Source of the DNA: Clostridiales bacterium
GTDB taxonomy: Bacteria; Bacillota; Clostridia; Christensenellales; Borkfalkiaceae
Assembly (NCBI GenBank): GCA_015055805.1
Contig: SVHN01000012.1
Coordinates: 1-52,141 of the forward strand
Direction of reading: 5' to 3'
Length of the DNA: 52,141 nucleotides
Numbering within the stretch: position 1 is the first letter of the stretch; every line of letters starts with the position of its first letter. The notes below the pieces were generated by a model that had not been told where the DNA came from, ran no database searches, and saw nothing but the letters and a program-made list of their open reading frames with translations. The position numbers were made by a program, and so were the translations under genes. Shown here one piece after another: positions 4,878 to 36,438 of the stretch.

Positions 4878-4895
4878 CACGTGCGTGCGCACGTG
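4878..4895. promoter_or_regulatory. GC-rich inverted repeat at the integrase start
   Basis: CACGTGCG-TG-CGCACGTG is a perfect inverted repeat with 8-base arms in otherwise AT-rich DNA. It ends 12 bases before the chosen integrase ATG, so a hairpin here would sit beside the ribosome site. It could be a repressor site or an RNA element that limits integrase translation. Confidence 0.55.
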
Positions 4896-4907
4896 CGTGA
4901 GAGATTT

Positions 4908-6047
4908 ATGGCAGAGTTTTTTATATCTTCAAATAAATATTCATTGAGTGAACGACAAACAAAACGTGGAAAAGTTTATGATATACGTTTTCGTATTGTC
5001 ACGCCCGACGGTATTGAAAAACAAAAAAGGCTTGCTGGATATGCGAATAAAACGTTAGCAAAACAAGCCTACATTGATTTTATAACGGAAAAATGCGAAC
5101 TTATAAAAAACAATCCTATTATACGTCAAAAAAAAGCCGAAAAAGGTCAAGAAATATTAACCATTAAAGATTTAGTTAACACCTACTTAAAATCAATAAG
5201 AAACCAAATTAAAGATGCAACAATCTATGAAAAGGAAAAAATATTTAATTTAATAATCTTGCCACGCTTTGGCGACTGCCAGTTAAAACATCTTACAAGG
5301 CAAGAATTATACCTTTGGCAAGACGAACTGTGGTCAAACAAAAATCCAAAAACCAACGATTATTATTCCTATAAATACCTTTCTAAAATCAGAACATATT
5401 TTTCAGCATTTTTGACTTGGTGTGCTGATAGAAACGACGGATTTACTAACTACCTATTGACAATTAAAAAGCCCAAACGCAGAACACCAAAAAAGGAAAT
5501 GCAATTCTGGACCAGAAAAGAGTTTGAAACTTTTATCAAAGTTGTAGATAACCAAATGTATAGAACGTTATTTTCAATGCTATTTTATACTGGAAGACGT
5601 AAAGGCGAAGTTTTGTCACTTTCACCCGACGACATAAAACCTAACGGAATAAGATTTAACAAGTCGATAACCAGAAAAACGCTTGACGACAGTGCATATA
5701 AAATTACTTCGACTAAAACCGAAAAGGTCGCCACGACACCTATCTGCAAACCATTAAAAGCCGAACTTCAAAATTACACAGTCCCAAACGGTCCTTTTTA
5801 CTTTGGTGGCGATACACCTTTGACCGACAATACTATTAGACGTGTTTTTAATAAATACGCAGACATTGCTGGGGTCAAACAAATTAGAATCCACGACTTG
5901 CGACATTCGTTTGTTTCTATGCTCATACATTTAGGCGCAAACTTAACTGTTGTGGCTGACTTAATCGGTGACACTTTGGCACAAGTCACGAAGACTTACG
6001 CCCACTTATACGAAGAAGATAAAAAGAAAATTATTGACAAAATTTAA
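4908..6047 (+). CDS. int: Phage tyrosine recombinase (integrase)
   Basis: The 379-residue protein has an N-terminal arm-binding region (about 1-65), a SAM-like core-binding domain (about 84-180) and a C-terminal catalytic domain. Visible catalytic residues are R231 (TGRRKGE), K270 (TSTKTEK), H329 and R332 (HDLRH), and the nucleophile Y364 (KTYAHL). The usual histidine of the LGH motif is replaced by D355 (LIGDTLAQV). The ATG at 4908 was preferred over the in-frame GTG at 4881 because a GAGAG ribosome site precedes it and the GTG lies inside an inverted repeat. It would catalyse integration and, with a helper, excision. Confidence 0.92.
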   Translation: MAEFFISSNKYSLSERQTKRGKVYDIRFRIVTPDGIEKQKRLAGYANKTLAKQAYIDFITEKCELIKNNPIIRQKKAEKGQEILTIKDLVNTYLKSIRNQIKDATIYEKEKIFNLIILPRFGDCQLKHLTRQELYLWQDELWSNKNPKTNDYYSYKYLSKIRTYFSAFLTWCADRNDGFTNYLLTIKKPKRRTPKKEMQFWTRKEFETFIKVVDNQMYRTLFSMLFYTGRRKGEVLSLSPDDIKPNGIRFNKSITRKTLDDSAYKITSTKTEKVATTPICKPLKAELQNYTVPNGPFYFGGDTPLTDNTIRRVFNKYADIAGVKQIRIHDLRHSFVSMLIHLGANLTVVADLIGDTLAQVTKTYAHLYEEDKKKIIDKI

Positions 6048-9612: not shown

Positions 9613-10263
9613 TTATTCTCCTTTATGTTCTTTCAAGTATTCGTGAGCACGGTTTTCTTTAACTTCTTGCCTTACTCTACCTATTACAAAATCGTCGGTT
9701 TTCACGTCGTTGGTAACCGTAGTCCCAGCGCAAATATATGATTTACTTTCTATATTTAGCGGTGCAATAAGATTGCAGTTACTGCCTATAAAACACTCGT
9801 CACCAACTATGGTTTTACTTTTTGTTTTTCCATTATAATTAACAAAAATTGCACCGCAACCTATATTGCAATTTTTGCCAACAACCGCGTCACCAACGTA
9901 CGCAAGGTGGCTCACTTTGCTGCCTTTTCCTATCTTTGCATTTTTTATCTCAACAAAGTTTCCTATTTTGACGTCGCTTTCAAGTTCAGCATTTGGTCTT
10001 AACCTAGCAAAAGGTCCGACAGAACAATTATCACCAATAATTGCTTTTTCTGCTTGACTATGATTAACAGTTGAACCGGTGCCAACGAAAGTATCAACTA
10101 TATAGCAACCGGGAAGAATAACAGCACCGTCAGAAATTACTGATAAACCTTCTATCCTATTATTCTCATAAATAGTTACGTTGTTTCCAATTTTAACGCT
10201 TTTATCAATAAAAACAGATCTTTTATCTTTGACAACAAGATTTTTCACCTTTTTACTTTTCAT
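9613..10263 (-). CDS. GlmU-type glucosamine-1-phosphate acetyltransferase domain (left-handed beta helix) without the uridylyltransferase domain
   Basis: The 216-residue protein is made almost wholly of left-handed beta-helix hexapeptide repeats and matches the C-terminal half of GlmU. Active-site residues of that domain are visible: GPFARLRP (Arg), GNFVEIKNA (Lys), VSHLAYVGDA (His, Tyr) and NYNGK (Asn, Lys). The N-terminal UDP-GlcNAc pyrophosphorylase domain of normal GlmU (about 230 residues, LAAGxGTRM motif) is absent. It would acetylate GlcN-1-P, leaving uridylylation to another protein. A strong AAGGAG ribosome site supports this start as genuine, not a truncation product. Confidence 0.88.
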   Translation of the reverse strand: MKSKKVKNLVVKDKRSVFIDKSVKIGNNVTIYENNRIEGLSVISDGAVILPGCYIVDTFVGTGSTVNHSQAEKAIIGDNCSVGPFARLRPNAELESDVKIGNFVEIKNAKIGKGSKVSHLAYVGDAVVGKNCNIGCGAIFVNYNGKTKSKTIVGDECFIGSNCNLIAPLNIESKSYICAGTTVTNDVKTDDFVIGRVRQEVKENRAHEYLKEHKGE

Positions 10264-27658: not shown

Positions 27659-27726
27659 TATAATCCTCCTTTTATAGCTTTCTATTTCAATATATGCTGC
27701 AAAAGGTTGGTTATGCTACAAAAAAT

Positions 27727-27750
27727 AAAGCGACTCAAAAGAATCGCTTT
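27727..27750 (-). terminator. Terminator of the oxidoreductase operon
   Basis: AAAGCGA-C-TC and GA-A-TCGCTTT pair around an AAAA loop, with a T-run on the minus strand. It closes the operon that begins at the T-box. Confidence 0.75.
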
Positions 27751-27766
27751 ACTAATACAGTTAATA

Positions 27767-28303
27767 TTAATAGTTATAACCAAGTTCCATCGCCTTAATA
27801 TTTCTCTCTAACAATTCCGCCTTTTTAGCAGGAATCATCTGCGCCAAACTGCTTTTAATCTGAGCTAAAGTTAGAACGTCGGTTTCCTTTATTACCTTGC
27901 CTAAAATAATCATATTAGCAAGACCGTCAAGCCCATTATCACTTGCAAGTTTCGTTGCAGGAATTCCAAAGATTGAAACGCCGTCTCTAGCGCATTCTTT
28001 GTTTATAAGTGAACTGTCATAAACAATGTATCCACCCTGCTCGGTTTCATTGAGATATTTTTCAAGTGAAGGCAAGTTCATTGCAATAAGAACGTCAGGC
28101 TTATCAACTATAGGCGAACCGATAGGTTCGCTGCTAAGCGTTACGCTACAGTTTGCAGTACCACCACGCATTTCAGGGCCATACGACGGAAGCCAACTAA
28201 CTTCAAGACCTACTTTAAGTCCTGTATACGCCATAGCTTTACCTGTAAATAGGATACCCTGTCCGCCAAAACCAGCTATAAGGATTTTAGTCGTTTTACT
28301 CAT
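27767..28303 (-). CDS. 2-oxoacid:ferredoxin oxidoreductase, gamma subunit
   Basis: The 178-residue protein has the gamma domain of the pyruvate/ketoisovalerate ferredoxin oxidoreductase family: [36 protein letters not shown] and [15 protein letters not shown]. This subunit contributes to CoA and subunit contacts. It is the last gene of the four-subunit set delta-alpha-beta-gamma and lies at once after the beta gene. Branched-chain specificity is inferred from the operon. Confidence 0.9.
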
Positions 28304-29050
28304 TTACTTTTCCTCCCTATATTTATCTTTATAAACGCCGAGCGGATAATAAGTTTCCATATTATCATCAAGCCATTTTAGCGCGTCCTTAGGTGTCAAA
28401 CCCCAGTTTGTGGGGCAAGTTGAAAGAACTTCAACGAGTGAAAAACCTTTACCCTCAATTTGGTTCTTGAACGCGTGTAAAATCGCCTGTTTAGCTTTCT
28501 TTATGTTTTTAACGTTGTTTACCGCTACCCTTTCAAGATATGACGCGCCGTCAATCTGTGAAAGCATTTCACAAACCTTAACGGGATAACCTACGACGGT
28601 GACGTCTCTTCCGTAAGGCGAAGTTTGTGTAATTTGGTTAGGAAGAGTGGTCGGTGCCATTTGTCCGCCAGTCATGCCGTAAATAGCGTTGTTTACGAAA
28701 ATAACGGTAATATTTTCGTTTCTAGCAGCAGAATGTACGGTTTCAGCAGTACCTATTGCAGCCAAGTCACCGTCACCTTGATAGGTAAACACAACGTTAT
28801 CAGGGTTTGCGCGTTTTGCACCAGTAGCAACAGCAGGCGCTCTTCCGTGAGCAGCTTGAATCATATCACAGTTAAAATAGTTATACGAGAATACCGAACA
28901 CCCAACGGATGCGATACCTATGGTTTTATTAGTTACACCAAGTTCCTCAAGTGCTTCAGCAACGAGGCGGTGTATAATTCCGTGCGTACAGCCCGGGCAA
29001 TAATGCAATTGATTATCAGTAAGACCTTTGGTCTTTTCAAATACTACCAT
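28304..29050 (-). CDS. 2-oxoacid:ferredoxin oxidoreductase, beta (TPP-binding) subunit
   Basis: The 248-residue protein binds thiamine pyrophosphate: CPGCTHG near the start and the TPP motif [20 protein letters not shown], ending [12 protein letters not shown]. The cysteines of this subunit help bind an iron-sulfur cluster. It overlaps the alpha gene by seven bases and is followed directly by gamma. The family interconverts 2-oxoacid + CoA + oxidised ferredoxin with acyl-CoA + CO2 + reduced ferredoxin, and can run either way. Confidence 0.93.
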
Positions 29051-30114
29051 TGTTTTGCCTCTCCTTTTTCTATCTCTGTAAGTTTATTTACTATTTCTTC
29101 CGGACTCATAAGCACGCCGCCAGTCCTTCCATAGAAATAAACGGGTTTTGAGCAGTTGATTGCAAGTTTAACGTCGTCAACCATCTGTCCCATATTAAGT
29201 TCTACCGACAAGAAAGATTTAACCTTTCCAGCAGCCTTTTTAAGAACTTCCTTCGGGAACGGCCACAAGGTTATAGGTCTAATCATTCCCACCTTAATAC
29301 CGCGTTTTCTTGCTTCCATAATAGCATTTTTAGATATACGAGCAGCTATACCGAACGCAACAATACAGATATCCGCGTCGTCCATCATAAACTCTTCGTA
29401 CATTACTTCGGTTTCTTCAATGGTTTTATAGCGTTCGTATCTTGAAATATTCCACTCTTCAAGCTGAGCAGGACTTAAAGATAATGAGTTGATAATATTT
29501 CTTCCTTCGTGCGTACCAGTACCCGTAGTTGCCCAAGGTTTAGCGTATTCTTTAATCTCGCCAAGATCAAGGCTAACAGGCTCCATCATTTGACCGAGCG
29601 TACCGTCTGCGAGTATCATACTTGGCATTCTATACTTATCAGCAAGGTCAAACCCCTTAAAAGTTAAGGTAACCATTTCTTGAACTGATGCAGGCGCAAG
29701 TACTATAAGATGATAATCTCCGTGTCCACCGCCCTTTATTGCTTGAAAATAGTCAGACTGCGAAGGCTGAATACCGCCAAGACCGGGGCCGCCACGCTGA
29801 ACGTTTACTATAAGCGCAGGTAATTCGCAACCTGCAAGATAGCTTATCCCTTCGCTTTTAAGCGAAATTCCTGGACTTGAACTACTAGTCATAACCCTTT
29901 TTCCGCAAGCAGCAACACCGATTACCATATTGATTGCAGCAATCTCAGATTCAGCCTGCAAAAACGTTCCGCCGATTTTAGGCATACGCTTACTCATATA
30001 AGCAGCAACTTCCGTCTGCGGCGTTATGGGATAACCAAAATAATGTTTACAACCAGACATTATTGCGGCTTCCGCTAAAGCTTCGTTTCCTTTCATTAAA
30101 ACTTTTTCTGCCAT
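29044..30114 (-). CDS. vorB: 2-oxoacid:ferredoxin oxidoreductase, alpha subunit (VorB type)
   Basis: The 356-residue protein has the pyrimidine-binding domain of the family: MSGCKHYFGYPITPQTEVAA, FLQAESEIAAINMVIGVAAC, TSSSSPGISLKSEGISYL and QRGGPGLGG. The overall pattern is close to annotated 3-methyl-2-oxobutanoate (ketoisovalerate) dehydrogenase VorB, although 2-oxoglutarate enzymes are similar. The neighbours (IlvE, Leu T-box) favour branched-chain 2-oxoacids. It lies ten bases after the ferredoxin gene. Confidence 0.88.
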   Translation of the reverse strand: MAEKVLMKGNEALAEAAIMSGCKHYFGYPITPQTEVAAYMSKRMPKIGGTFLQAESEIAAINMVIGVAACGKRVMTSSSSPGISLKSEGISYLAGCELPALIVNVQRGGPGLGGIQPSQSDYFQAIKGGGHGDYHLIVLAPASVQEMVTLTFKGFDLADKYRMPSMILADGTLGQMMEPVSLDLGEIKEYAKPWATTGTGTHEGRNIINSLSLSPAQLEEWNISRYERYKTIEETEVMYEEFMMDDADICIVAFGIAARISKNAIMEARKRGIKVGMIRPITLWPFPKEVLKKAAGKVKSFLSVELNMGQMVDDVKLAINCSKPVYFYGRTGGVLMSPEEIVNKLTEIEKGEAKQW

Positions 30115-30124
30115 AATTTCACCT

Positions 30125-30331
30125 CTATTTTTCTACCGTAATGACGGTATCGGGACACATAGTCGCACAGAAAGCGCAGCCTATGCATTTGTCTTGTTCT
30201 GTAACAACTGCAGGGTGATAACCCTTTGCGTTAATCTTATCCTTTGCGAGCGCAATAATGTGCTTTGGGCAAACCGTTTCGCACAGTCCGCAACCTTTAC
30301 AACGCTCAACGTCAAAAGTAACTTTTGCCAT
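30125..30331 (-). CDS. Ferredoxin-type delta subunit, two 4Fe-4S clusters
   Basis: The 68-residue protein has two CxxCxxCxxxCP motifs (CKGCGLCETVCP and CIGCAFCATMCP), enough for two 4Fe-4S clusters. It is the delta subunit that passes electrons between the TPP site and free ferredoxin. It lies first in the four-subunit set. A strong AAGGAG ribosome site precedes it. Confidence 0.93.
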   Translation of the reverse strand: MAKVTFDVERCKGCGLCETVCPKHIIALAKDKINAKGYHPAVVTEQDKCIGCAFCATMCPDTVITVEK

Positions 30332-30341
30332 AATTTCTCCT

Positions 30342-31010
30342 TTATAGCCAATCGCCGTATTTTATTGGATCGATAGGCAATATTTGTTTTAAGTTTTTAA
30401 GTTCTTCAGTTATTAAATCTCGTCTTACCGCAGAAAACTTTAGCGGCAAGCTCGCGGCGTTCGACAATTCTTTTACAAAATCAACGCCATTTAGTATAGT
30501 TTCAATTGTCGTTTCATTTCCTAAATTTGCATTGTTTACTATACCGGTAAACTTTAATCTTGACGAATACTCAATCTCTTCTTTAATCCTTAAAGCTGAC
30601 TCAATATCTCTTGTTTCGGGGCGAAGATTATTGACAACCCATAAAACGTCGTAATTGTTTTCTTCTTTAATTTTATCGGAAAACCGCCCTAATGCCAACG
30701 CGCCCCTATCGTCACCGCCGACGTCAACCACAGCGAATCTAGTTAAATCGTCAACCATTTTATACGACTTTGCGTTCATTGCAGGAATATCGACGTTCGT
30801 TTCTGCGAAGGGCGAAACAACAAGTTCCACTCCGCGCGACGTTAGAAGTTTTTCCGCGTCAACCGTTCTAAAATATGGATTTACAATATCAAGGTCGTAA
30901 ATGCTTACGTTTTTTTTCAAAGCACTTAGCGCAAGGGCGTAATTTACGGCAACAAAAGTTTTTCCACTACCGTAATGCCCCATAAAAAGCGTTATTCGTT
31001 TGTCAAACAT
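30342..31010 (-). CDS. P-loop ATPase of the MinD/ParA/CobQ-like class
   Basis: The 222-residue protein has a Walker A motif GHYGSGKT (residues 11-18), DLDIVNPYFRTVDAE (a Walker A'-like aspartate) and VVDVGGDDRGALALG (Walker B). It starts at the ATG at 31010, overlapping the ilvE stop as TAATG; the longer frame lacks a ribosome site. It lies between ilvE and the ferredoxin gene. Its job is unknown. Cluster loading or regulation of the oxidoreductase is a reasonable guess, since similar ATPases sit beside such operons in Clostridia. Confidence 0.75.
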   Translation of the reverse strand: MFDKRITLFMGHYGSGKTFVAVNYALALSALKKNVSIYDLDIVNPYFRTVDAEKLLTSRGVELVVSPFAETNVDIPAMNAKSYKMVDDLTRFAVVDVGGDDRGALALGRFSDKIKEENNYDVLWVVNNLRPETRDIESALRIKEEIEYSSRLKFTGIVNNANLGNETTIETILNGVDFVKELSNAASLPLKFSAVRRDLITEELKNLKQILPIDPIKYGDWL

Positions 31011-32077
31011 TAAACTTTCACCTTGTAGCACCAACCGCGAGTATCGGGTTTATTACCCCATTGTATACCCGTGAGTTCGTCATAAAGCTTTTGCGTCAAT
31101 TCACCGATTTCGTTGTTTGAAACGGTATAGTCAACGTCTTTATAGAAAAGATGCCCTATCGGCGACACTACCGCAGCCGTACCCGTTCCCCAAGCCTCTT
31201 CAAGTTTTCCACTCTGAGCAGCGGCTAATAGTTCGTCGACCGATATCAATCTTTCAGAAACTTTATATCCCCACTCTTTAAGAATTTCCAAACACGACTT
31301 CCTAGTTATACCCGGAAGAACGGAACCTGTAAGTTTAGGGGTTGCAATTTCGCCGTCGATTTTGAACATAACGTTCATTGCGCCAACTTCTTCGATATAT
31401 TTTCTTTCAACACCGTCAAGCCAAAGAACTTGAGTAAAGCCTTTTTCAGCAGCGCGCTTGCCTGCTCTTAAACTTGCAGCATAGTTACCACCGCATTTAG
31501 CATAACCAGTACCACCGCGAACGGCTCTAACGTCTTCGCTTTCAATGCTGATTTTTACAGGATTAATTCCCTCGGCATAATAACTACCAACAGGCGAAAG
31601 AATTATAACGAAAGTTGCGTTATGTACGGCGTGAACACCAAGCGATTCGTCGTTACCAAACATAAACGGTCTAATGTATAGCGACGTGCCGACCTTATCC
31701 GGAATCCAGTCGTAATCAAGCGTAATAAGTTCGGTAAGTGCTTTAAGGGTAAACTCTTCGTCCAAAAGCGGCAAGCAAAGTCTTTCCGCCGAAGCGTTCA
31801 TTCTTCTAATGTTTTCAATAGGACGGAACATTTGGTAACCGTCAGCCGTTCTGTACGCCTTCATACCCTCAAATATTTCCGCGCCGTAATGTAAAACGGT
31901 TGAAGCTGGATGAATAGGAATATAATCAAAGGGAACGATTCTTGCGTCGTGCCAACCGTCTTTGTCGTTATATTCCATAACAAACATGTGATCGGTAAAG
32001 TATTTGCCAAAGCCGAGATTGTTAAAATCAGGCTTTGCTTTTAATTTTTCTGATTTGAAAATTTTAATTTCCTGCAT
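31010..32077 (-). CDS. ilvE: Branched-chain amino acid aminotransferase
   Basis: IlvE interconverts Leu/Ile/Val and their 2-oxoacids with glutamate as partner. The 355-residue PLP fold-type IV enzyme shows IHPASTVLHYGAEIFEGMKA, GYAKCGGNYAASLRAGK with the PLP lysine, EEVGAMNVMF and SVLPGITRKSCLEI. Size is that of the larger BCAT type. It lies 33 bases after the acyl-CoA-synthetase fusion and overlaps the ATPase gene by one base. It links the 2-oxoacid made or used by the oxidoreductase to the amino acid. Confidence 0.96.
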   Translation of the reverse strand: MQEIKIFKSEKLKAKPDFNNLGFGKYFTDHMFVMEYNDKDGWHDARIVPFDYIPIHPASTVLHYGAEIFEGMKAYRTADGYQMFRPIENIRRMNASAERLCLPLLDEEFTLKALTELITLDYDWIPDKVGTSLYIRPFMFGNDESLGVHAVHNATFVIILSPVGSYYAEGINPVKISIESEDVRAVRGGTGYAKCGGNYAASLRAGKRAAEKGFTQVLWLDGVERKYIEEVGAMNVMFKIDGEIATPKLTGSVLPGITRKSCLEILKEWGYKVSERLISVDELLAAAQSGKLEEAWGTGTAAVVSPIGHLFYKDVDYTVSNNEIGELTQKLYDELTGIQWGNKPDTRGWCYKVKV

Positions 32078-32110
32078 AGTAAACCTCTCTATTATAATTA
32101 AAAATTATAC

Positions 32111-34549
32111 TTACATATTTTTGATTTTCTCAATAGCGTCTTCTCTCATTTTATATTTGAGAATTTTGCCTGCGGCGTTCATTGGGAACTCTTTAACGAA
32201 TATAAAATATCTTGGAACTTTATGTTTTGCCATATGCGCGTTTCCATACTCACGCATCTCGTTCTCGTCAGAAGTTGCGCCGTTATTAAGGATAATATAA
32301 GCGCAAGCCTCTTCACCGTAACGCTCGTCAGGCACACCGACCACTTGAACGTCGCTAACCTTACCGTTGGTCAAATAAAACTCTTCAATTTCGCGTGGAT
32401 AAAGATTTTCACCGCCACGGATAATCATATCTTTCAGCCTACCAGTAACTTTATAGTAGCCGTCTGGCGTTCTGCAACAGATATCACCGCTATGCAACCA
32501 ACCGTCAGCATCAATGGTCTGTTCGGTTGCTTTTGGCATTTTATAGTAACCTTTCATTATGTTATAACCACGCGCAACAAATTCACCATTTTGCCCATCG
32601 GGAAGTTCTTCGCCCGTTTCAGGGTCTATTATTTTACACTCAACACCTGGAAACGCACTACCAACCGTTTCAACACGGTGATCTATATCTTCGTTTACTT
32701 CACCCATAGTACAACCTGGCGACGCCTCAGTCTGCCCGTAAACACTTATGATTTCTTTCATATTCATTTCGTCAGCAGCCCTTCTCATAAGTTCAGGCGG
32801 ACAGTTCGCGCCAGCCATAATACCAGTACGCATGTGCGAAAAATCAGTCTTTGCAAAATCCGGGTGACCAAACATTGCTATAAACATTGTCGGCACACCA
32901 TTAAAACAAGTTATTTTTTCGTCGTTGATACAAGCAAGCGAAGATTTTGGTGAGAAGTACGGCATCGGACAAATGGTTCCGCCGTGCGTCATCATATTAG
33001 TCATTGAAAGCACCATGCCAAAGCAATGGAACATCGGGACTTGAATCATCATTTTATCGGCTGTAGACATATCCATTCTGTCGCCGATAATTTTTCCGTT
33101 ATTGACGATGTTTGTGTGCGTTAGCATTACGCCCTTAGGAAACCCGGTAGTACCAGAGGTGTATTGCATATTACAAACGTCGTCAGCCTTAGTCATTGAC
33201 GCCCTACGACGAACTTCTTCTAGCGGCACGAGCGACGAACGCTTTGCAAAATCTTTCCACTCCAAGCAGCCGTCCATATCAAAGCCAACGGTTATAACGT
33301 TTCTCAAAAATGGAAGTTTTTTAGAATACAACGGCTGACCGGGCGTAATTGTTTTAAGCTCCGGACAAAGTTCTTCAATAATAGCCCTGTAGTCCGAATC
33401 CTTACAACTATCGATCATAACCAAAGTGTGCGTATCAGATTGACGTAAAAGATATTCCGCCTCGTGAATTTTATACGCAGTATTCACGGTAACCAAAACC
33501 GCTCCGATCTTCACGGTCGCCCAAAAGGTTAAAAACCATTGCGGAACGTTAGTTGCCCAAATCGCTACGTGATGCCCTGCCTCAACGCCCAGCGATATAA
33601 GTGCTGCGGCAATCCTATCAACGTCGTCACGGAACTGCGAATACGTTCTCGTATAATCCAAAGTCGTATACTTAAACGCATACTGATCGGGATACCTTGC
33701 AACCATTTCGTCAAGCACTTCTGAAAAAGTAAGATCCAAAACGTCGTATTTTTTCCAAGGGTGCGTTCCCGTTTTTGAACGGTTATAATATATTTCATTG
33801 CGTGGTTCTGCGCCCGAATTAGCTTTAAGATAACTCTTAAAATGCGTTAAAACGATATCAGCGTTAGAAATATCACCTGAATCCATAACTGCAACGTATC
33901 CGTCGTAGTTGAGCGACCTTAAAGCGTTCATAAAGTCTTTTACAGGCAAATCACCTTCACCAACCAAAACGTCTTCACCATCTTTTTTATCGCCCAAACG
34001 GACGTAACCTATATACGCACCGAGAGTTTGAATAGTTTTGTCAGCCGACTCGTTTGCAGTAAAATACGTTTCTCTAATATTCCAACAAACCTTTACTGCC
34101 GCACTGCCGAAAAAGTTAATTACATCCAAAACCTTTTCCGTGTCAACAAGCGCGCCGCAAGTTTCAAAAAGAATAGACACGCCGTTTTCTTCCGCCTCCC
34201 GAATAGCCGTAGAAAATATGGTCTTTAAAGTTTCATAATCGGGTAATTCGTCAAACTTTACCACGACACCATTTACCGAGGCAAGAGCTGCATATTCAAC
34301 GTATTTTAGCACGGTTTCACTATCACAACTGTTCGGGCAAGTTAAAACGGGTATTGATATATGTCTATTGACAAGTTTTCTTTTTGCATCAACCGTTACC
34401 GAAGAACGGAAGATACTGTCTTCATGCGCTGCTTTTTCCGCAGCGACGTCTGTAATTTCAACACCGTCAAAGCCATAGTCCTGCACAAAATTGCACAGTT
34501 CGATAAAACTTTTGGCCTTAACGTATTTATCAGAAAAGGAAAATTTCAT
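32111..34549 (-). CDS. Fusion of a TIM-barrel (sugar isomerase/AP endonuclease 2 type) domain and an acyl-CoA synthetase
   Basis: The 812-residue protein has two domains. Residues 1-245 match the xylose-isomerase-like TIM barrel (FVQDYGFDGVEITDV, ISILFETCG, VGEGDLPVKDFMNALRSLNY), with some usual metal ligands changed. Residues 270-812 are a full AMP-forming acyl-CoA synthetase: YTSGTTGFPKG (463-473), YGQTE (604-608), DGWLHSGD, GRLKDMIIRGGENLYPREIE, and the lysine K795 in NAAGKILK. The synthetase half should be active. It starts one base after the LeuA-like gene. Given its neighbours, its substrate may be isovalerate, isobutyrate or 2-methylbutyrate; the role of the barrel is unknown. Confidence 0.85.
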   Translation of the reverse strand: MKFSFSDKYVKAKSFIELCNFVQDYGFDGVEITDVAAEKAAHEDSIFRSSVTVDAKRKLVNRHISIPVLTCPNSCDSETVLKYVEYAALASVNGVVVKFDELPDYETLKTIFSTAIREAEENGVSILFETCGALVDTEKVLDVINFFGSAAVKVCWNIRETYFTANESADKTIQTLGAYIGYVRLGDKKDGEDVLVGEGDLPVKDFMNALRSLNYDGYVAVMDSGDISNADIVLTHFKSYLKANSGAEPRNEIYYNRSKTGTHPWKKYDVLDLTFSEVLDEMVARYPDQYAFKYTTLDYTRTYSQFRDDVDRIAAALISLGVEAGHHVAIWATNVPQWFLTFWATVKIGAVLVTVNTAYKIHEAEYLLRQSDTHTLVMIDSCKDSDYRAIIEELCPELKTITPGQPLYSKKLPFLRNVITVGFDMDGCLEWKDFAKRSSLVPLEEVRRRASMTKADDVCNMQYTSGTTGFPKGVMLTHTNIVNNGKIIGDRMDMSTADKMMIQVPMFHCFGMVLSMTNMMTHGGTICPMPYFSPKSSLACINDEKITCFNGVPTMFIAMFGHPDFAKTDFSHMRTGIMAGANCPPELMRRAADEMNMKEIISVYGQTEASPGCTMGEVNEDIDHRVETVGSAFPGVECKIIDPETGEELPDGQNGEFVARGYNIMKGYYKMPKATEQTIDADGWLHSGDICCRTPDGYYKVTGRLKDMIIRGGENLYPREIEEFYLTNGKVSDVQVVGVPDERYGEEACAYIILNNGATSDENEMREYGNAHMAKHKVPRYFIFVKEFPMNAAGKILKYKMREDAIEKIKNM

Positions 34550-34550
34550 A

Positions 34551-35921
34551 TTAGTTTTCCTCGTACACTATTTTATTGAGAGCGTTGATGTAAGCTCTGA
34601 TACAAGCACCGACGATATCAGTAGAAACGCCGTTGCCAGGATACAGTTTACCATTAGCGCGTAAGCGGATAATAGACGAACCGACAGCCCCCCTACCTTT
34701 GGTTACTGCGTGAACTTGGAAATCGTCAAGTTCGTAATGGTGCCCTATTATCTGCTCAATAGCGTGAAACGCTGCATCAATCGGACCGTCACCAGTCGAA
34801 ACGCCCGTAAACTTTTCGCCGTCTTTTTCAAGGGTAACGTTTGCCGTTGCAGGAATAATATTACCGCTGTTTACAACGTAGTTAACCAAATGATAGGTTG
34901 ACGGAACTTGCATTGCCGTACTAGCAATAACGGCTTCTAATTCTTTAGTATCAATCAATTCTTTCTTTGCGGAAAGTTTTTTCAACTCTTCATAAACCTT
35001 ACCAACGTCGTCGTCCGAAAGTTCATAACCAAGTTGAGCAACAGCGGTAGCAACGTCCTTAATAGACGCGTTAGCATCAAGCGTAAAATGCTCCCCGTCT
35101 TTTTCCTGTTCGGAAACAATATCCGTAACACCACCTATCGCGGAAGTTAAATATTTAACGTTGGTAACGTCGATATTGCAATCTGCATCTAAAACAAACT
35201 TCTTTGCCCTAATAACGTCTGCCACTACTGCCATATCGAGATAATCGCCCGTAACAGAAGTAACCACACCGTCTGCACCTACACTAATAGCGGAAACAGC
35301 GCAAGCAGCCGACATTTTTAATGCGTCCGACGGATTAACTATAATCTTTGCGCCACAAACACCTTTAATCTTTTTAACGATATCTGCGTAATCTTCAGGG
35401 AAAGCCTCGCCAGCATCATCACAAACAACGATAGACTCAGCACCAGCAGCAAAAGCTGTGCTAGCGCAAGATTCTATAAAACCCGCTTCTGCCCTAAACG
35501 CGTCGTATGCCACGAACTCAACGGACTTAGACAAGGTTTTTGCCGCCTTAACTAATTCTTCAATCTTTTTGAGCATTGCCGGTGCTTTTAAGTGATAAAA
35601 ATATTCCATCTGTGCCGTAGAAACGGGCATTGCAACCTGCAAGCAAAATTTATCAGCATCTTTAACGCAATCGTATGCATTATTCAAACTATTATCGTCG
35701 ACCCCAACGGGAATCTTAACAATTGCGTTCTTTATGCTTTTTGCAATTGTTTTATAAACTATTTTGTCTTCCTTTGATGACGAAAGTAGCGGTAGTTCAA
35801 TATAATCAACGCCTGACGCGTCTAGTTTTTCTGCAATAGCAAGTCTTTCTCTAAACGTTAACGACAACTCTTGTTGTTCAGCTGCTTTTAGCGTAATGTC
35901 TGAAACAGTAATCTTTCTCAT
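34551..35921 (-). CDS. LeuA-like protein with lost catalytic motifs and intact allosteric domain
   Basis: The 456-residue protein is related to 2-isopropylmalate synthase. The C-terminal LeuA dimer domain (about 330-456) is well kept (GDGPIDAAFHAIEQIIG, GVSTDIVGACIRAYINALNK). In the catalytic barrel the hallmark DTTLRDGEQ reads DITLKAAEQ (residues 8-15), the metal-binding HxH is replaced by N196-P-S198 (IIVNPSDALK), and the GERAGN loop is gone. It should therefore not make isopropylmalate. The start at 35921 follows AAAGGAG. It is the first gene after a leucine T-box and may be a leucine-sensing regulatory partner; that is inference. Confidence 0.8.
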   Translation of the reverse strand: MRKITVSDITLKAAEQQELSLTFRERLAIAEKLDASGVDYIELPLLSSSKEDKIVYKTIAKSIKNAIVKIPVGVDDNSLNNAYDCVKDADKFCLQVAMPVSTAQMEYFYHLKAPAMLKKIEELVKAAKTLSKSVEFVAYDAFRAEAGFIESCASTAFAAGAESIVVCDDAGEAFPEDYADIVKKIKGVCGAKIIVNPSDALKMSAACAVSAISVGADGVVTSVTGDYLDMAVVADVIRAKKFVLDADCNIDVTNVKYLTSAIGGVTDIVSEQEKDGEHFTLDANASIKDVATAVAQLGYELSDDDVGKVYEELKKLSAKKELIDTKELEAVIASTAMQVPSTYHLVNYVVNSGNIIPATANVTLEKDGEKFTGVSTGDGPIDAAFHAIEQIIGHHYELDDFQVHAVTKGRGAVGSSIIRLRANGKLYPGNGVSTDIVGACIRAYINALNKIVYEEN

Positions 35922-35944
35922 AATGAACTCCTTTAATAAAAACA

Positions 35945-36087
35945 AATCCCCGACCGAAATTCAGTCAGGGACGATTGTAACCGTGGTACCACCCAAATTA
36001 TTGCAAATTCACCTTGCAATCACTCTTTAAGCTTATAACGGTAGCAACCCGAAAACGACTACTGAATTCACCGACAATGTTTATTCA
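35945..36087 (-). ncRNA. T-box expression platform lacking Stem I (proximal copy)
   Basis: On the minus strand the T-box consensus GGGTGGTACCACGG (35994-35981) lies before a terminator stem (CCCTGAC with GTCGGGG, about 35946-35972) and T-run, then the LeuA-like gene. Upstream sequence from CGGTGAATTCAGTAGTCG to AAAGAGTGATTGC aligns with the middle and 3' part of the distal T-box. The Stem I features (AGAGAG, GGTTGGTG, specifier loop) are missing, and the predicted start of transcription falls just before the conserved part. Confidence 0.75.
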
Positions 36088-36092
36088 TAAAC

Positions 36093-36121
36093 ATTATACA
36101 ATGCGTACTATTAATTGTCAA
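36093..36121 (-). promoter_or_regulatory. Promoter of the proximal T-box leader
   Basis: TTGACA (36121-36116) and TATAAT (36098-36093) are separated by 17 bases on the minus strand, with GC before the -35. Transcription would begin near 36086. Confidence 0.75.
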
Positions 36122-36171
36122 GCAAAAGAGTTGCATTTTTACGACGATTAGCCGCTTTGCCTATAAAAAAA

Positions 36172-36403
36172 TAAAACCCCGACTGAAATTCAGTCAGGGA
36201 CGATTTTTTCACCGCGGTACCACCCGATATTGTTGCCAAGCAACCACTCTTTTGCTTTTAACGGGGCAAGCCGTAAACGATTAATCTGTTCGCCGTTTCC
36301 GCTCCGGAATGAGTAACGCCCCGCCCCGCATTGACTTGCACCAACCGTCAACTCTCTTAATTACGACGTTTCGTCTGTTTCCATCTAAGCGTTTTATAAA
36401 ATT
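36172..36403 (-). ncRNA. Complete T-box riboswitch, leucine specifier CTC
   Basis: The minus-strand leader has AGAGAG (36357-36352) and GGTTGGTGCAA (36346-36336), the Stem I distal motifs. Its specifier loop reads ACTCA between paired GGCGTT and TTCCG, giving CTC (36313-36311) for tRNA-Leu(GAG). The T-box sequence GGGTGGTACCGCGG (36225-36212) precedes a terminator stem (36201-36176) and T-run. Uncharged tRNA-Leu should stabilise the antiterminator and turn on the operon. Confidence 0.88.
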
Positions 36404-36409
36404 GTCAAA

Positions 36410-36438
36410 ATTATAGCACCGTAAAATGTCTTTGTCAA
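36410..36438 (-). promoter_or_regulatory. Promoter of the complete T-box leader
   Basis: TTGACA (36438-36433) and TATAAT (36415-36410) on the minus strand have a 17-base spacer, again preceded by GC. Confidence 0.8.

Follow-up and report, generated by a model that had tools for sequence, protein, structure and literature searches.

The 52,141-nucleotide window analyzed here (positions 1 to 52,141 of contig SVHN01000012.1 from Clostridiales bacterium assembly GCA_015055805.1) carries on its minus strand an operon of eight genes behind a leucine T-box. The operon encodes a LeuA-like protein, a fusion of a TIM barrel to an AMP-forming acyl-CoA synthetase, the branched-chain aminotransferase IlvE, a P-loop ATPase, and the four subunits of a branched-chain 2-oxoacid:ferredoxin oxidoreductase (Vor). 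We consider it very probable that the window holds the leucine arm of a system in which leucine, isoleucine, and valine are made from branched short-chain acids supplied from outside, together with the enzymes common to all three arms. The features on which this proposal stands are read from the sequence, namely, the gene content, the T-box specifiers, the pairing of T-boxes with synthetases, the missing canonical genes, and the motifs lost from the LeuA-like protein.

In the route that we propose, uncharged tRNA-Leu would permit readthrough at the first T-box (T-box 1), and the TIM-barrel/synthetase fusion would convert isovalerate to isovaleryl-CoA, spending ATP to AMP. Vor would then combine isovaleryl-CoA with CO2 and reduced ferredoxin to give 4-methyl-2-oxopentanoate, which IlvE would transaminate to leucine. 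Valine and isoleucine would depend on this Vor and IlvE as well, and the synthetases for these two, with a helix-turn-helix (HTH)-cupin-acyl-CoA synthetase build, would lie elsewhere in the genome under Val and Ile T-boxes. The LeuA-like protein would have lost isopropylmalate synthesis, would bind leucine through its LeuA_dimer domain, and may exert feedback on its partner synthetase. We infer the substrates, the direction of Vor, and the leucine binding and feedback from the evidence set out below. The original prediction had already proposed the synthesis direction, from isovalerate to leucine, and this gained support both from the lack of matches to IlvB, IlvC, and IlvD and from the Ile and Val T-boxes that stand ahead of two further synthetases and recur in relatives.

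T-box 1 scored 93.6 bits against RF00230, just over the gathering score of 93 (E 2.8e-19), and the alignment placed CUC, followed by 6 nucleotides and GAG, at the specifier, reading leucine as originally claimed. A Leu specifier was present ahead of the LeuA-like gene at 40 of the 41 loci of a first set that includes the window (31 by a script rule and 9 by eye, most of the nine having an altered GAG anchor), L062 being the only locus of the 41 at which none was found. It was also present at 58 of 80 loci of a second set, made up of the 80 top-ranked among at least 580 relatives (55 by rule and L101, L109, and L115 by eye); three of the remainder were too short. The two sets overlap, in that L076 and L078 share sequence, and the script rule misreads nine clade-2 leaders, which were read by eye. 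A chance match to T-box 1 was ruled out by the RF00230 score together with this recurrence, and the arrangement of a Leu T-box ahead of the LeuA-like gene and the fusion was found again in related genomes. The second T-box of L100 (7444-7688), which reads UCC or UUC, was not readable with confidence.

By title, the 80 relatives of the second set are uncultured-bacterium assemblies, mostly Clostridia, plus two assigned to Eggerthellales/Eggerthellaceae, and 40 of the 80 have ruminant-gut sample titles (RGIG records), a raw count not set against a baseline for the collection. One Eggerthellaceae contig (L156) has two LeuA-like genes, at 10001 and 15910, and L154 is from Eggerthellales. The LeuA-like/fusion pair thus occurs outside the Clostridia, perhaps by transfer.

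The fusion lies directly after the LeuA-like gene at 117 of 121 loci (91 complete fusions and 26 cut by a contig end). At two of the other four, L125 and L132, the next frames, of 675 and 798 amino acids, were missed by the start rule, and the sequence of the last two, L076 and L078, stops within the LeuA-like gene itself. Three synthetase motifs, the P-loop and the A8 and A10 lysine motifs, are kept in every one of the 91 complete fusions. The nearest NCBIfam model, NF009233 for fatty acid CoA ligases, was matched below its cut (671.6 versus 832), and the best PDB sequence match of the TIM barrel was partial (E 1e-4). The predicted structure of the fusion had a mean predicted local distance difference test score (pLDDT) of 81.6.

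Seven T-box matches were found in the window genome, with specifiers, read from the alignments, for Trp, Phe, Ile, Leu, Val, and Thr, the seventh being a second T-box in the window (T-box 2). By eye, the Phe T-box lies ahead of pheST-like genes and the Thr T-box ahead of a thrS-like one. The Ile T-box (AUC) lies ~50 nucleotides ahead of a gene for a 755-amino-acid HTH-cupin-AMP-binding protein (cupin synthetase a), and the Val T-box (GUA) lies ~50 nucleotides ahead of one for a 764-amino-acid protein of the same build (cupin synthetase b). Hence, each branched-chain T-box of this genome precedes an acyl-CoA synthetase, which in the case of Leu is the second gene in the operon. Relatives show the same pairing. 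Ahead of cupin synthetase a, ATC was read in 27 of 27 readable leaders among 28 loci, the window genome included (25 by rule and L190 and L204 by eye; L180 is cut by a contig end), and ahead of cupin synthetase b, an RF00230 T-box reading GTA was found in all 20 leaders fetched (18 by rule and L225 and L227 by eye). At four loci (L086, L144, L149, and L150), which are the four given to Rfam out of seven divergent loci, all three T-boxes occur, each with its own synthetase: the Leu T-box precedes the LeuA-like gene and the fusion, the Ile T-box precedes cupin synthetase a, and the Val T-box (GUA or GUC) precedes cupin synthetase b, followed by the P-loop ATPase, Vor, and IlvE.

Among NCBIfam models, both cupin synthetases come closest to MbcS (452.8 and 429.3 bits, below the equivalog cut of 850). 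According to an excerpt of PMC10026030, MbcS favors 2-methylbutyrate and isobutyrate over isovalerate, which is a poor substrate for it, a preference that fits the Ile and Val T-box pairing and would explain why leucine has a separate synthetase. The original prediction had assigned isovalerate, isobutyrate, and 2-methylbutyrate to a single synthetase; the T-boxes suggest that the fusion serves isovalerate, as proposed, and that isobutyrate and 2-methylbutyrate are each handled by a separate synthetase. Every one of the 45 relatives that carry the LeuA-like gene matches a cupin synthetase with an E value no higher than 1e-100. Right after the Ile T-box synthetase of the window genome lies a gene for an ACT-domain and metallo-beta-lactamase protein (L173:4084-5514, minus strand), and a similar protein (L054:9620-11068) follows a cupin synthetase. 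It is possible that the ACT-domain protein is an isoleucine sensor, the counterpart of the LeuA-like protein.

IlvB, IlvC, and IlvD had no match in the 95.7% complete window genome, and no LeuC-sized protein was found there, the sole aconitase-family match being an aconitase-sized frame of 731 amino acids. A dehydrogenase gene on contig C8 scored below the cut of the leuB model (266.5 versus 353.2) and above those of a 3-isopropylmalate dehydrogenase model (403.6; cut, 393) and a tartrate dehydrogenase model (503.6; cut, 470.4). Of the leu genes whose absence the original prediction asked about, LeuC was not found, as were none of IlvB, IlvC, and IlvD, and LeuB is ambiguous. The LeuA-like gene occurs in 45 of 81 genomes, as a single near-full match in 41 and in pieces in 4. 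Both IlvC and IlvD were matched in only 4 of these carriers (41 had neither), compared with 15 of the 36 other genomes (6 had one and 15 neither; Fisher p 0.001); among genomes at least 90% complete, the counts were 3/22 and 13/26 (p 0.013), with relatedness ignored in both tests. A class sample of 196 genomes gave a similar picture, with IlvC in 4 of 20 carriers and 109 of 176 others (p 0.0005, relatedness again ignored). Two carriers in that sample, G124 and G125, have no IlvC match and yet have IlvD-family matches of 354 to 384 bits.

The LeuA-like protein resembles LeuA (PDB entries 3fig, 1sr9, 3rmj, and 3ewb) in having the barrel and LeuA_dimer domains and differs from it in lacking the RDGEQ and HxH motifs. 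In pattern searches, neither RDGEQ nor HxH[ND] was found in any of 121 homologues, and in 40 of 40 LeuA-like proteins there is a histidine at neither position of the HxH motif. We compared the family with 16 canonical LeuA sequences taken from genomes of relatives. Twenty-six barrel residues that are invariant in the canonical set are kept by no more than a tenth of the LeuA-like family, whereas no canonical-invariant residue of the C-terminal domain is lost to that degree. Within the LeuA-like family, the C-terminal domain is more conserved than the barrel (mean identity, 0.66 versus 0.40), the reverse of the pattern within canonical LeuA (0.42 versus 0.58). An active isopropylmalate synthase was rejected on the loss of the two motifs. 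The protein is probably catalytically inactive, and its simplest reading is that it is probably a leucine sensor acting on the neighboring synthetase, an idea in the original prediction that the lost catalytic motifs and the conserved leucine domain strengthen.

It has to be considered that the LeuA-like protein has kept an enzymatic role, in some different reaction, and is not a sensor. The barrel is kept in the predicted structure (mean pLDDT, 86.4); moreover, D8, D140, and R143 are present in 40 of 40 proteins, and the R of RDGEQ is present in 8 of 40. An enzymatic role nevertheless seems unlikely to us, because the HxH histidines and both motif patterns are gone and because the barrel, with 26 canonical-invariant residues mostly lost, is the less conserved half of the protein, opposite to what is seen in canonical LeuA. 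Foldseek returned LeuA structures for the predicted structure, the barrel of which fits 3ewb closely (1.6 A, 273 columns). The fit of the whole chain to leucine-bound 3fig was loose (TM score, 0.53; root mean square deviation, 20), so the arrangement of the domains may differ or may be poorly predicted.

The eight genes are closely packed, with gaps of no more than 33 nucleotides, and the operon extends from a perfect promoter match (P1) to a terminator-like hairpin just past the Vor gamma gene (Table 1). Position 36438, at which the original prediction ended the unit, is the first base of the P1 -35 box. The eight open reading frames were found where they had been placed and were assigned to families by Pfam and NCBIfam. 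The claim of a complete delta-alpha-beta-gamma Vor also stood, in that the VorB-type subunit passed its NCBIfam cut and the gamma, beta, and delta subunits, which pass no NCBIfam cut, were recognized via Pfam. Apart from the terminators of the T-boxes themselves, the minus-strand stretch that runs from the T-boxes through the Vor gamma gene showed a single terminator-like site, a weak match of 5 pairs inside the LeuA-like gene (35822-35808). The next such site was the hairpin past the gamma gene, and the single-unit claim is qualified by a promoter-like site ahead of ilvE, which is weighed below. The P-loop ATPase gene is kept ahead of VorD at many loci, and the protein may serve Vor as an assembly factor or an iron-sulfur factor. 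The amidohydrolase gene upstream of P1 is a frequent neighbor in relatives, at times on the far side of the LeuA-like/fusion pair.

Table 1. Features of the operon and its borders in the window
Feature	Coordinates	Strand	Evidence
Amidohydrolase, just upstream of P1	36458-37261	-	PF04909
Promoter P1, TTGACA-17-TATAAT	36410-36438	-	12/12 consensus match
T-box 1, specifier CUC (Leu)	36193-36396	-	RF00230, 93.6 bits
T-box 1 terminator	36177-36199	-	Terminator-like site in scan
Promoter P2, TTGACA-17-TATAAT, between the T-boxes	36093-36121	-	12/12 match
T-box 2, lacking Stem I (has IIA/B, Stem III, and antiterminator)	35964-36097	-	RF00230, 64.9 bits
T-box 2 terminator	35946-35972	-	Terminator-like site
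LeuA-like protein with LeuA_dimer domain	34551-35921	-	PF08502, 106.3 bits (cut, 24.9); PF00682, 93.9 bits
TIM barrel (AP_endonuc_2) + AMP-forming acyl-CoA synthetase fusion	32111-34549	-	PF01261, PF00501, PF13193
Promoter-like match ahead of ilvE	32104-32133	-	11/12 in promoter scan
IlvE, branched-chain aminotransferase	31010-32077	-	NF009897, 469.4 bits (cut, 307)
P-loop ATPase (CbiA/ParA-like)	30342-31010	-	PF01656, 26.2 bits (cut, 25.4)
VorD, ferredoxin-like delta subunit	30125-30331	-	PF12838, 50.8 bits; NF042987, 49.1 (below cut of 125)
Vor alpha (VorB in NCBIfam)	29044-30114	-	NF005507, 551.5 bits (cut, 399)
Vor beta, thiamine diphosphate domain	28304-29050	-	PF02775, 76.2 bits
Vor gamma	27767-28303	-	PF01558, 134.1 bits
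Terminator-like hairpin at operon end	27724-27753	-	Scan for terminator-like sites

Downstream of T-box 1, and still ahead of the LeuA-like gene, come another perfect promoter match (P2) and T-box 2, neither of which was part of the original prediction. T-box 2 scored below the gathering score, and its alignment passes over the Stem I part of RF00230, so that it has no specifier loop; Stem III, the antiterminator with its T-box bulge, and the terminator are present. This tandem arrangement was found at 14 loci, including the window, with a promoter-like match ahead of both T-boxes at all 14. In 12 relatives, the RF00230 scores were 105 to 124.6 bits for T-box 1 and 53.4 to 73.7 bits for T-box 2. 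Only at L043 is T-box 2 complete, with a full Stem I, a score of 128.5 bits, and the isoleucine specifier AUC. We read the tandem as an ancestral pair of Leu and Ile T-boxes, the second member of which would later have lost Stem I. Across the 14 loci, 98.8% of the cells in the 3' half of T-box 2 are paired, and 8 of 18 pairs show double changes, including all seven pairs of Stem III. This covariation was reached by 0 of 500 shuffles, while the number of pair types was ordinary (151/500), and the terminator was 92.9% paired with weaker covariation (5/500 shuffles). Folding of the leader lacking Stem I gave nothing specific (z of -3.2 with the terminator and -0.5 without it).

A more far-reaching reading joins these parts. 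It would have three synthetases, each with a sensor and a cognate T-box, a single shared Vor and IlvE, and a T-box 2 that is blind to the anticodon. The sensors would be the retired LeuA for leucine, the ACT-domain protein for isoleucine, and the HTH-cupin domains on two of the synthetases, and in the clade of the window, T-box 2 would answer any uncharged tRNA with an ACCA end. Vor would then respond to shortage of valine and isoleucine as well as of leucine. Taken as a whole, this scheme is tentative, and we doubt that all of its parts will hold together.

The same genes could instead supply primers for fatty acid synthesis, with the synthetases and Vor yielding branched acyl-CoA for iso and anteiso membrane lipids, as does MbcS in Staphylococcus aureus, and with the T-boxes merely reflecting a branched-chain amino acid (BCAA) shortage that starves the primer route. 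The cupin synthetases are indeed nearest MbcS, whose shown role, in the excerpt of PMC10026030, is fatty acid priming. However, IlvE and Vor are needed in the operon to make an amino acid and not to turn an acid into a primer; three T-box specificities are each paired with one synthetase; and IlvB, IlvC, and IlvD were not found in the window genome. We therefore regard primer supply as very unlikely to explain the operon, although it could coexist with amino acid synthesis. Still less probable, to the point that we give it hardly any weight, is leucine breakdown, in which IlvE and Vor would oxidize leucine to isovaleryl-CoA for energy. Vor enzymes are often said to belong to amino acid fermentation, but a Leu T-box, as read at the loci of both sets (40/41 and 58/80), would switch a breakdown operon on when leucine is short. 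The AMP-forming synthetases, moreover, spend ATP, a Pfam scan of the eight proteins gave neither a kinase nor an ADP-forming ligase through which ATP could be gained, and the missing IlvB, IlvC, and IlvD count against breakdown as well. Both functions were rejected as the main one on the T-box pairing, the operon content, and those missing genes.

Several observations weigh against the synthesis of BCAAs from external acids as we propose it. Vor is reversible. No readable T-box was present at 19 of the 80 loci of the second set, among which we counted L155, where a GCA reading 655 nucleotides upstream was not convincing. The four carriers with both IlvC and IlvD (the IlvC of G037 being a fragment) imply that the system is not only a replacement for the canonical route, and the 15 of 36 noncarriers with neither gene imply that simple auxotrophs exist and that gene absence is not special to carriers. 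Absence in the window genome is itself limited by an assembly of 20 contigs at the completeness given above, and the C8 dehydrogenase is ambiguous as LeuB. In three carriers (G002, G004, and G025), the cupin match covers the synthetase half only, and 16 of the 36 noncarrier relatives also match a cupin synthetase. Finally, the 11/12 promoter-like site ahead of ilvE could drive vor apart from the T-box; across the 21 relatives checked, the best match at this position was 9 of 12, and the site was not seen there.

That rumen bacteria turn branched volatile acids into amino acids by carboxylation was reported in the 1960s, and the step from isovalerate to leucine was reportedly the subject of physiological work by Allison, Bryant, and Doetsch in 1962. 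The conversion is established for the rumen, according to an excerpt of PMC7356843 (citing Allison and colleagues 1962). The overall conversion proposed here is the same, and half of the 80 relatives are titled as ruminant-gut samples; what differs is that genes are now proposed for it, with a separate synthetase for each acid and with regulation by T-boxes. In Bacillus subtilis, the ilv-leu operon has a tRNA-Leu T-box, and tandem T-boxes on BCAA genes have been reported in Bacillota (excerpt of PMC12452182). Like those operons, the one in the window has a leucine T-box ahead of putative leucine synthesis genes, and T-boxes in tandem; unlike them, it has Vor, IlvE, and acyl-CoA synthetases in place of ilvBNCD/leuABCD, and its T-box 2 lacks Stem I. 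MbcS of S. aureus shares with the cupin synthetases the proposed ATP-dependent activation of branched short-chain acids (excerpt of PMC10026030), while the latter have N-terminal HTH and cupin domains, fall below the MbcS equivalog cut, and would lead to an amino acid and not a fatty acid.

Searches of the open-licence literature turned up nothing on this gene set or its T-box regulon, nor any case of BCAA T-boxes that control Vor or acyl-CoA synthetases, in agreement with the earlier statement that no description of such a T-box-regulated unit was known. The chemistry is known, and the genes, sensors, and regulation are apparently undescribed. If the proposal is right, bacteria that look like BCAA auxotrophs, without ilvB, ilvC, and ilvD, rely on acids from amino acid-fermenting neighbors. 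Isoacids are used as a ruminant feed additive (excerpt of PMC12272956). Because the T-box specifiers label each synthetase with one acid, the substrate assignments are directly testable, and a LeuA turned sensor and a T-box without Stem I, as we interpret them, are both unusual parts worth study.

Some further features lie outside these subjects. A search of a plasmid collection gave only two weak aminotransferase matches. At the left end of the window, an open reading frame at 4881-6047 (plus strand), near phage-like frames, resembles a tyrosine recombinase (by eye). A third POR_N match (G000 C15:94986-95543) lies in a 583-amino-acid frame whose length resembles that of an indolepyruvate oxidoreductase alpha subunit, and aromatic acids might be assimilated alike. 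The Trp T-box (UGG) of the window genome precedes a gene for a TrpB-like PLP (pyridoxal phosphate) enzyme (L175:6696-8075, minus strand; NF009057, 666.6 bits), which fits tryptophan synthesis from scavenged indole.

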